The translations under genes were made by a program, and so were the position numbers. Under the pieces are notes generated by a model that saw only the letters and a list, made by a program, of their open reading frames with translations, was not told where the DNA came from and made no database searches. Of a stretch of 39,626 nt of DNA, positions 2,318 through 31,975 are shown piece after piece; position 1 is the first letter of the stretch; each line of letters begins with the position of its first letter. The DNA is from an uncultured Synechococcales cyanobacterium (GTDB lineage Bacteria > Cyanobacteriota > Cyanobacteriia > CAIUCS01). The stretch is from positions 1 to 39,626 of the forward strand of contig CAIUCS010000017.1 in NCBI GenBank assembly GCA_903897715.1, in the 5' to 3' direction.

Positions 2318-2345
2318 AACAAATAATTGTAGACAATTATTTGTT
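2318..2345. terminator. AT-rich inverted repeat between convergent dnaA and holB
   Basis: Two perfect 13-nt arms (AACAAATAATTGT and its complement) are separated by AG, and the repeat overlaps the holB stop codon. It could act as a weak bidirectional terminator for the convergent pair. The stem is AT-rich and lacks a long U tract on either strand. Confidence 0.35.
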
Positions 2346-3339
2346 AATCTGAACCAATCCTAGAATCGTTGGTTAGGGCAATTTCCATCAATATTACTTC
2401 CCAGATTAGACGGGGTTGAACATATTGCAAAAGTAGTTTACGAATTCGTTCAAGCTGCTTTATTAGTGATGCCTGAGGACGGGGGGTTCGCTGCCAGTAC
2501 CACTGTTGAAGATAGTCCACTAACCATAGTTGAGCTTCAGACGTTAGGGCTTGGTCAATTTGTTGGGCGAGGTTAAGGGCTGATTTAAGACTGGTGGGGG
2601 GTTGTTTTAATGAGTCTAAAAGTTCACTGGGAATGCTCTGTAGTTGTCGCCAATGGACAATGGCTTCGCCAGGGCTTCCCTGGGCTAAGGAGAGTACTTG
2701 CGGGTGTTGAATAATTTCATTAAATCCCTGACGACGCAAAACTTCTACCATCACCTCTAAAGGTAAACGGTGAAATGGAATACGCTGGCAACGAGAAACT
2801 AAGGTTGGTAATAAAGCCTCAACGCTAGGGGCGATTAGAATTAAAGTTGCGTATCCAGGTTCTTCCAATGTTTTTAATAGGGCATTGGCGGCGGGCTCTG
2901 CCATTGTTTCTCCATGATTAATCACGATTAGGGAACGTTGGCTCTCTAAGGGTGGACGCATCAAAAACTGAGTTATTTCTCGGATTTGTTCTAACCGGAT
3001 TTGTGGGGGAACCCGTCGTTTTATCCCAGATGCTTCGGCTTCGTGAACGGTTAGCCGTTTGCCTTGATGTAAATAAGTAGGCTCAATCCAAAGTAGGTCT
3101 GGATGATTACGATGGTGTACCCGTTGGGGTAAAGCTTGGAGTGAGTTGGATAGGGCTAAGTCTTTGTGGGGGGCACTAACTATAATTTGGGCTAAACATT
3201 CAGCCGCCAAACTCCTACCAATGCCCTCTGCCCCTGTAAATAAGTAGGCAGGTGCCAGGCGATCGCGGACAATTGCCTGAGTCAATAAATGAATTGCTTG
3301 AGGCTGTCCTAGCAGATTGTGAAAAAATGCCAATGACAT
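2344..3339 (-). CDS. holB: DNA polymerase III delta-prime-type clamp-loader subunit
   Basis: A 331-aa protein of the clamp-loader AAA+ family. It opens with the N-terminal motif FHNLLGQPQAIHLLTQAI. A Walker-A-like loop GAEGIGRS has Arg where an active ATPase has Lys, as expected for a non-hydrolysing delta-prime subunit. ETMAEPAANALLKTLEEPG is the Walker-B/linker region of this family, and LVSRCQRIPF carries the SRC motif that supplies the arginine finger to its neighbour. The C-terminal third is helical collar-like sequence. It works with gamma/tau and delta to load the beta clamp. It is convergent with dnaA and separated from the next minus-strand gene upstream by the omega-RNA-like element. 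Confidence 0.88.
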   Translation of the reverse strand: MSLAFFHNLLGQPQAIHLLTQAIVRDRLAPAYLFTGAEGIGRSLAAECLAQIIVSAPHKDLALSNSLQALPQRVHHRNHPDLLWIEPTYLHQGKRLTVHEAEASGIKRRVPPQIRLEQIREITQFLMRPPLESQRSLIVINHGETMAEPAANALLKTLEEPGYATLILIAPSVEALLPTLVSRCQRIPFHRLPLEVMVEVLRRQGFNEIIQHPQVLSLAQGSPGEAIVHWRQLQSIPSELLDSLKQPPTSLKSALNLAQQIDQALTSEAQLWLVDYLQQWYWQRTPRPQASLIKQLERIRKLLLQYVQPRLIWEVILMEIALTNDSRIGSD

Positions 3340-3375
3340 AGATTAAGTTAGGTACTTAATTCAAAAAGGAGGTTG

Positions 3376-3600
3376 TCTCTACGGGGCTAAAGCCGTCCTT
3401 CGTGACGATTTCTAGTTACTCAGCCCGCTATTACTAGCGATCCGAGGAAATCGAGTACTGCGAACAAGGGCTGGACAGCAAAGTGAAGTTATCCGCGAAT
3501 TCATTCGGGGTCTCAAAAACAAAACCCGAACCAACATGGGAGGCTAAAGCCTTTACCATGGTTTTCACCCTCCGCCTGAAGCACGGAGACTCTCAACTTC
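3376..3600 (+). ncRNA. HEARO / IscB-type omega-RNA-like element without a nuclease ORF
   Basis: About 225 nt of GC-richer, strongly structured sequence lies between holB and the DUF1830 gene. Helices I can pair by eye: CGATTTC 3406-3412 with GAAATCG 3447-3453; CAGCCC 3421-3426 with GGGCTG 3468-3473, which crosses the first helix and so forms a pseudoknot; a tetraloop hairpin CGCTA-TTAC-TAGCG 3426-3439; TTCGGG 3504-3509 with CCCGAA 3525-3530; and GGGAGG 3538-3543 with CCCTCC 3568-3573. GGCTAAAGCC occurs twice (3385-3394 and 3542-3551). Nested helices, a central pseudoknot and a 3' part like the region before iscB genes match HEARO RNAs, the guide scaffolds of IscB. No iscB ORF follows. The family call is from recall, not a covariance search. 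Confidence 0.55.
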
Positions 3601-3635
3601 GACTAGGTAGAGTTACTTCATTTAAGGAATGATTC

Positions 3636-4004
3636 CTAATTGATTTGGGTAAGTACGGGTAACAAGATAGGGTCTAGTGCCCCATCGTTAGCTTGCTCAA
3701 TTTGTTGATCCTGAAGATGATTAAACCTTGAGACTTGTTTTGATGAAACCTCCTGTACTTGAAGACGAAGGCAAGGAATTCGATCGGATAATATAGCGCT
3801 AGCCATCATTCCACTGTGGATTTCTAATACACTATCTAGGGGAGCTTCAAAAATCAACCGTTGACCTGGGAAAACAACACGCTCAAAATACCAACCTGTA
3901 ACATTGGTAATTCTTGCGACTTGCATTTTACCGGCAACATTGACATAGCAACATAAAATACGATCAGTAAACGCAGAGGGGAGGGAATCAAGTACTTGTG
4001 TCAT
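3636..4004 (-). CDS. DUF1830 family protein
   Basis: I place the start at the ATG encoding MTQVLDSLP (122 aa) rather than an upstream TTG that would add 18 residues unlike the family. The sequence carries the conserved stretches of DUF1830, a small family essentially confined to cyanobacteria: DRILCCYVN, ARITNVTGWYFERVVFPG and EIHSGMMASAILSDRIPC. No catalytic motif, signal peptide or membrane segment is visible, and no function is established that I know of. The C-terminal 40 residues are polar and less conserved-looking. The omega-RNA-like element lies just downstream on the other strand. Confidence 0.8.
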   Translation of the reverse strand: MTQVLDSLPSAFTDRILCCYVNVAGKMQVARITNVTGWYFERVVFPGQRLIFEAPLDSVLEIHSGMMASAILSDRIPCLRLQVQEVSSKQVSRFNHLQDQQIEQANDGALDPILLPVLTQIN

Positions 4005-4279
4005 GACTTTTATTAAAATTTTAGAAAATATACTATAGTTCGATTCAATACCAACCAAGGCTAGGCTGACGAAGCATCTATCTGTATCACCTATTGTTAA
4101 TTAGAAACAAATAATTACATCTAATTAATAAAAGTATACTCTCTATAACGTAGCATTGAGCGATTTTAACGTACTGTAAACCTGACTACTATTCTTTGAA
4201 TATTTATTAAAAATCAATTGAGGGTGAAGTTAGGAACGACGAAGTAATCCGTTTACCAAAAAAGTAGTCCTAAATAAAT
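4005..4279. other. AT-rich intergenic region upstream of the DUF1830 gene
   Basis: No credible ORF or structured RNA. It presumably holds the promoter of the minus-strand DUF1830 gene; I could not single out hexamers. Confidence 0.4.
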
Positions 4280-13730: not shown

Positions 13731-14096
13731 TGTACAGACTACGATCGGATTGGATTCGAGAAACTGAATATCAAGGGACTAGCTAGAACCAGACTAGCTC
13801 AATCCATACTCCATGTTCCATGGCAGACATTCTTGACCATAGTGCCAGCAGTAACGGTAAAACGCGGCAGGCACCCTCAAGAAGTTGGTGCCAGAAGCAG
13901 GAGCATCCAGTGTTGTGAGGAAAGAGTGGTTAAAGACTTGTCGATTCCAGTTCAGGATTGCCCTAATGGTGGAGTCAGTGTAGACAGGGATTTAAATGCA
14001 CGTTTGAACCTACTTAAACGGACGGTAGGACAACCGTTTGCTGCTGGTGGAGGCTTAGTGGATGCACAGCCTGTAAGACAGAACTCTCATTGGTGA
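13731..14096 (+). pseudogene. Truncated TnpB (IS200/IS605 RNA-guided nuclease) relic
   Basis: An open frame of 121 codons runs from just after an in-frame TGA to a stop, with no proper start. IGFEKLNIKGLARTRLAQSI matches the TnpB segment holding the RuvC-II glutamate (V-x-x-E-x-L-N-x-x-G). VVKDLSIPVQDCPNGGVSVD and DRDLNARLNLL match the zinc-finger and RuvC-III region with its catalytic Asp. The RuvC-I half is missing. The zinc finger is damaged: the first CxxC appears as QCC and the second as CPNGG. About 40 residues around VPAVTVKRGRHPQEVG look out of register, suggesting an internal indel. It is not functional as a nuclease. Confidence 0.75.
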
Positions 14097-31877: not shown

Positions 31878-31975
31878 TGATCCGGACTCATGCGATCACA
31901 ACGCCTAAACCTTGTCAGAACCGGAAGGTAGCAGCAACACGGGATGCTTGCGATAGGCGTGAACTCCGGGTCATT
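31878..31975 (+). ncRNA. ffs: Bacterial small signal recognition particle RNA (4.5S)
   Basis: The apical SRP core is unmistakable: TTGTCAGAACCGGAAGGTAGC continued by AGCAACACGGGATGC. It includes the GGAAG tetraloop-type loop with the 5' CAG and 3' GCAGCA asymmetric loop bound by Ffh. The ends pair: TGATCCGGA at 31878-31886 with TCCGGGTCA at 31965-31973, and ACGCCT with AGGCGT close the middle. TTTT follows at once as a short terminator tract. The RNA of about 96 nt acts with Ffh in co-translational membrane targeting, including thylakoid proteins. Confidence 0.93.

Follow-up and report, generated by a model that had tools for sequence, protein, structure and literature searches.

A probable decayed IS200/IS605 tnpB element carrying part of a TnpB omega/reRNA scaffold upstream of holB in a cyanobacterial genome

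The spacer between a DUF1830-type gene and holB, within the 39,626-nucleotide stretch of DNA analysed here (the window), most probably holds an IS200/IS605 tnpB element on the minus strand that has decayed into a non-autonomous, PATE-like copy, and we put the probability of this reading at about 0.93. It is best read as ordinary transposon decay, in which a dead, nuclease-less element lies inserted 5' of holB. A preliminary description had proposed that the spacer was an ORF-less, non-autonomous copy of a HEARO/IscB omega-RNA. The nuclease-less, intergenic mobile-element copy with an OMEGA-type scaffold was confirmed by the present analysis, while the assignment to the HEARO/IscB family was not.

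Results

The element belongs to a dispersed repeat family. The spacer between holB (2344-3339, minus strand) and the DUF1830-type ORF (3636-4058, minus strand) contained no ORF of at least 60 aa, as had been described. A look for further copies elsewhere in the genome had been suggested, and about 20 places matching the window sequence were found, degenerate and dispersed. Similarity to these places was confined to the interval from 3369 to about 3610/3611. Searches with the two ends alone returned 16 and 11 places, partly shared, and both ends lay within roughly 0.3-0.4 kb of each other in the copies on contigs C88, C193, C114 and C94. The copies differed among themselves by carrying different or shorter middles between the same two ends. 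When 39 relatives, all related only at class level, were searched with the DNA, one weak partial match was obtained outside the element's own genome; plasmids gave no match when searched at the DNA level with the scaffold of the family, and an exact-pattern scan of genome_contigs for the scaffold core gave 0 matches. Judged from these searches, the close form of the sequence family is found only in this genome.

The features of the copy in the window are collected in Table 1. Positions 3456-3610 aligned to the C28 copy (85%) and positions 3369-3455 to the scaffold of other copies, and since the two halves aligned to separate parts of other copies, 3455/3456 was taken as a deletion junction. 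The tnpB gene expected between the left end (LE) and the right end (RE) was absent from the window copy, and remnants of it were present in the C173 and C115 copies.

Table 1. Features of the tnpB-element copy in the window
Feature	Positions	Strand	Basis
Whole IS200/IS605 tnpB remnant: left end, internal deletion, 3' TnpB omega/reRNA part	3369..3610	-	similarity to ~20 genome places
Left end (LE), outer boundary 3610	3504..3610	-	conserved in C28, C135, C193, C88, C75 and others; ahead of tnpB remnants in C115 and C173
CTACC, probable target/TAM pentanucleotide	3606..3610	-	11/11 copies; TAM role putative
LE sub-terminal hairpin CTCCG/CGGAG	3570..3588	-	sequence; in other copies too
Second GGCTAAAGCC (GGCTTTAGCC on minus strand), in LE	3542..3551	-	conserved in other copies and in the L092 LE
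3' remnant of small unclassified LE ORF (QQSEVIREFIRGLKNKTRTNMGG, stop)	3476..3547	+	similarity to C28 copy
Internal deletion junction; tnpB and 5' omegaRNA part gone	3455..3456	.	each half matches a different part of other copies
3' part of TnpB omega/reRNA scaffold	3369..3455	-	R1 52.1 bits; 95% identical over 88 nt to family sequence
Helix CGATTTC/GAAATCG	3406..3453	-	97.6% of cells paired
Tetraloop hairpin CGCTA-TTAC-TAGCG	3426..3439	-	two pairs changed on both sides
Omega stem GTCTC 3375-3379 / GTGAC 3402-3406, GGC/GCC tip	3375..3406	-	conserved stem in other copies
Site of RE hairpin and TCAA in other copies; here palindrome ATTAAGT-ACCTA-ACTTAAT, then ATGTCA	3340..3368	-	comparison with copies

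The high-coordinate end corresponds to the left end of the element, where the minus strand starts with CTACC-TAGTCGAAGTTGAGAGCC. The pentanucleotide was invariant at this boundary in every one of the copies compared and the base just outside it was random, as expected where elements insert on the 3' side of a fixed pentanucleotide; CTACC is the probable target or TAM. An LE with a sub-terminal hairpin placed after a fixed short target, the arrangement of IS200/IS605 tnpB elements, was thus found, and an LE 72% identical over 71 nt (locus L092) was located ahead of an intact tnpB. On the plus strand, the stretch at 3476-3547 was 73.9% identical to part of a 51-codon ORF-like stretch in the C28 copy. 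This small LE ORF runs opposite to tnpB (as at L010, 4604-4756), and one of its copies reads MADKIQINIKVSV, stop, ENAILDQYCEQETQQQREGIRELIRGLKKKIRTNTGG. It belonged to no Pfam or NCBIfam family, a protein search with it gave no match, and a ribbon-helix-helix reading of it was a guess without support.

At the end of the siblings that corresponds to the low-coordinate end in the window, the minus strand read ...GTCTCGAAGGACGGCTTTAGCCTCCGTAGAGACAACCTCTAGAATCCCTCGTCTTTTAAGCGAGGGA.TGTCAA, and the flanks diverged beyond it; by sequence, the siblings are laid out here like an IS200/IS605 right end that carries a TnpB omega/reRNA. The RE hairpin and TCAA were both kept in eight siblings that lack tnpB (C94, C56, C193, C114, C88, C140, C201 and C13). 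In comparison with the siblings, no intact right-end hairpin, TCAA terminus or flank guide was found in the window copy, and without the hairpin and TCAA no guide is defined. The guide had been placed in the roughly 16 nt to the left of 3376. The 3' side of the minus-strand RNA does lie leftward too, but the logic of that placement was wrong, the guide of TnpB elements being what follows the RNA 3' end (PMC8612924).

The loss of the right end, which we take as the better reading, is not fully certain, because a palindrome followed by ATGTCA, possibly a replacement in situ, stands near the normal right-end spacing. This bears on the possibility that the host has retained the copy, the transposon sequence now forming the holB leader and possibly its start codon, with no RNA-guided role. 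The scaffold ends 30 bases ahead of the annotated holB ATG and on the same strand, the ATGTCA at 3340-3368 is the annotated holB start and matches the terminal ATGTCAA of the element, and the 7-bp palindrome, itself unrelated, places ATGTCA within about one base of the usual position. The joint chance of a 7-bp hairpin and TGTCA at that spacing was about 0.5-1.6e-4, a figure to be read against the coincidence having been noticed post hoc. However, the palindrome occurred only once in the genome, and HolB start and N-terminus positions differ among relatives, so that a native origin of the ATG is possible. The omega stem of the window copy also had one mismatched pair, a sign of decay. Retention by the host is unlikely. 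None of the relatives compared showed a DUF1830 homolog in the neighbourhood of holB, and the holB-DUF1830 junction was not conserved there.

Identification of the RNA as part of a TnpB omega/reRNA came from a covariance model, R1 (85 positions, 18 pairs), which was built from eight siblings with the window copy left out. On the minus strand of the window, R1 scored 52.1 bits (E 5.6e-12) over 3417-3333, and on the plus strand 11.9 bits; it also matched C173 (47.3 bits) and the plasmid pANSO36B (39.5 bits). The homology to RNAs at tnpB ends thus lies on the minus strand, opposite to the strand originally proposed. Among 390 genomes of the class, 25 contained an R1 match, 24 of them besides the source genome. 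A TnpB ORF ended at or just before the RNA at 15 of the 28 loci inspected in other cyanobacterial genomes, six of these ORFs being identified in tblastn comparisons to annotated TnpB proteins and nine through the Pfam TNB domain. Homology to RNA lying 3' of tnpB genes was found. No TnpB was recognised beside the RNA at the rest of the 28 loci, and the upstream ORF at L100 was a peptidase. The R1 matches without a recognised TnpB neighbour (L096, L101, L103, L104, L106, L108, L109, L111, L112, L115 and L117), some of them near contig ends, may possibly represent further stand-alone copies in other cyanobacteria.

The order of the parts could also be followed within the genome. In the C173 copy, a TnpB C-terminal tail lay in sense just 5' of the right end. 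Pfam and NCBIfam gave nothing useful on this 54-aa tail, which was identified by its homology to annotated TnpB proteins and with a 460-aa TnpB query; related proteins on cyanobacterial plasmids carry the annotation RNA-guided endonuclease TnpB. The best match of the tail, 63% identical, was a remnant in pANSO36B of Nostoc cf. commune, where the same RNA and the TCAA terminus come after the TnpB remnant. The tnpB remnants of C173 and C115 were 56% and 52% identical to an intact TnpB. In both copies the LE, the tnpB remnant and the RE hairpin occurred in this order on the same strand as the window element, each copy being closed by the AGAATCCCT... hairpin with TTCAAA, and this genome thereby shows directly the minus-strand order LE, tnpB, omegaRNA, RE. 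No intact tnpB carrying the exact window RNA was found in the draft assembly (207 contigs) or in the exact-pattern contig scan, so the autonomous parent is reconstructed from the remnants and the relatives.

That the window copy works as a stand-alone TnpB guide RNA, in trans with a TnpB or a TnpB-derived repressor, is extremely improbable. Such a role would accord with the eight tnpB-less siblings in which the RE hairpin and terminus are retained and with the several TnpB-like open frames elsewhere in the genome. Against it, the window copy has neither the RE hairpin nor the guide junction and is missing the 5' portion of the scaffold; none of the TnpB frames and loci tested carried an RNA of the window family at its 3' end; and the cognate tnpB copies are broken. 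A weak TnpB TNB-domain match at 13821-14009 (plus strand), in a 121-aa open frame of the window, is possibly another tnpB remnant.

The helices noted earlier in the spacer are present in the sequence, and it is the RNA family and the strand proposed for them that did not hold. CGATTTC (3406-3412) and GAAATCG (3447-3453) are perfect complements, the tetraloop hairpin is present at 3426-3439, and the duplicated GGCTAAAGCC occurs at 3385-3394 as well as at 3542-3551. Single-sequence pairing was weak evidence, since the overall fold was no better than that of dinucleotide shuffles (z = -1.25 for the plus strand and -1.38 for the minus strand). Across the other genomic copies, the first helix was kept with little variation, and the tetraloop hairpin showed changes on both sides of its pairs (C-G/U-A and G-C/C-G), which makes both of them real features, of a minus-strand RNA. 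For the scaffold as a whole, 95.0% of cells were paired across copies versus 45-56% in slid versions, and three pairs were changed on both sides; the support from shuffles for this pairing was only moderate because the copies are closely related.

The crossing helix, which had been taken for the second helix of a central pseudoknot, fared differently. Its arms, CAGCCC (3421-3426) and GGGCTG (3468-3473), are indeed perfect complements, but this was seen in the window copy alone. The arm at 3468-3473 falls beyond the deletion junction, so that the junction separates the two arms and the other copies do not share the pseudoknot. Where other copies had the first arm, the sequence at the position of the second was different, and C28, the only copy sharing the 3468-3473 segment, has GGAGAC there instead of GGGCTG. 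The pseudoknot is specific to the window copy and probably fortuitous.

The HEARO reading itself was examined with the covariance model RF02033. The window gave no match at the gathering score, a search of 3300-3700 (401 bases) with E up to 10 returned no HEARO match and only two irrelevant weak matches, and no HEARO match was obtained for the full-length sibling copies. The whole genome contained one HEARO only, which scored 167.7 bits at C113:1421-1635. After it comes an open frame of 442 aa, in which an RRXRR domain was recognised at 254 bits. This RRXRR match was the only one in the genome and adjoins the C113 HEARO, so the window is without iscB. A complete, intact IscB element was observed at C113:867-1635 of the source genome (G000; loci L009 and L025), and this genuine HEARO with its IscB serves as a positive control that the HEARO test works. 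A stand-alone plus-strand HEARO/IscB omega-RNA mobilised in trans, conceivable in a genome with a genuine IscB/HEARO element and for a structured repeat with no ORF, is refuted by this test together with its in-genome control, by the homology to tnpB right ends on the opposite strand and by the unconserved pseudoknot, and its residual likelihood is negligible.

Two other RNAs were recorded in passing: a bacterial small SRP RNA in the window at 31879-31975 (plus strand, 57 bits) and a Cyano-1 RNA (RF01701) at L055, 1950-2023 (plus strand, 56 bits), downstream of the C94 copy.

Discussion

Our results favour a parent element in which LE, tnpB, omega/reRNA, RE hairpin and TCAA would have followed one another, as related copies and genomes indicate. 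A Y1 TnpA supplied in trans would transpose such an element as single-stranded DNA, and one intact-looking Y1 frame of 152 aa was found in the genome. Insertion would take place after a CTACC target, the boundary of which is seen in the copies. In ISDra2, the TnpB-reRNA complex re-cuts the empty donor site, which favours retention of the element, and the last ~16 nt of the reRNA come from the flank (PMC8612924). By analogy, the complex of the parent would cut the restored joint of the donor site beside the TAM after the element had left, and so promote retention of the element. The window copy is now without tnpB, the 5' portion of its omegaRNA and a recognisable right end with the guide junction, and owing to these losses it is most likely immobile; nor, most likely, can it supply a usable guide RNA.

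The siblings allow a broader conjecture, that nuclease-less copies with intact right ends are transcribed as stand-alone TnpB guides and used in trans by remaining TnpB, with the window copy as a decayed member. We regard this as very unlikely. If true, it would turn the reduced pool of transposons into a multi-guide system. A literature search on stand-alone TnpB omegaRNAs in cyanobacteria found nothing direct.

The reading as a decayed tnpB element corrects a plausible misannotation, in which a core-deleted tnpB element was read on the wrong strand and taken for a HEARO. In this cyanobacterium, core deletion of tnpB elements has left behind many nuclease-less fossils that still bear an omegaRNA, comparable to the PATEs of haloarchaea. 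Genome scans can mistake such fossils for new regulatory RNAs.

Among known systems, HEARO/IscB (RF02033; PMC9755519) likewise has an OMEGA guide RNA tied to IS200/IS605-type elements. However, its guide RNA lies 5' of iscB, whereas the RNA of the window family is found on the 3' side of tnpB and is read from the opposite strand, and the feature in the window has no match to the covariance model. The ISDra2 reRNA (PMC8612924) is closer. Its scaffold is located at the tnpB 3' end and the element right end, on the tnpB strand, and the covariance homologs of the window RNA in other cyanobacteria directly follow TnpB ORFs; the window copy differs in lacking tnpB, the 5' scaffold part, the right-end hairpin and the guide junction. 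The PATEs of Haloquadratum are partly core-deleted IS605-type transposons with fused ends only (PMC3119063), and the window family resembles them in being short, without transposase, with near-terminal palindromes, of core-deletion origin and in many copies. Multiple copies, a length too short for a transposase, terminal palindromes and core deletion were all found in the siblings C88, C193, C114 and C94. Unlike the PATEs, the window family is cyanobacterial and its copies are heterogeneous and degraded, and the copy in the window has lost one terminal palindrome. Judged by its sequence features, the window family fits the PATE kind, with a recognisable omegaRNA scaffold in addition.
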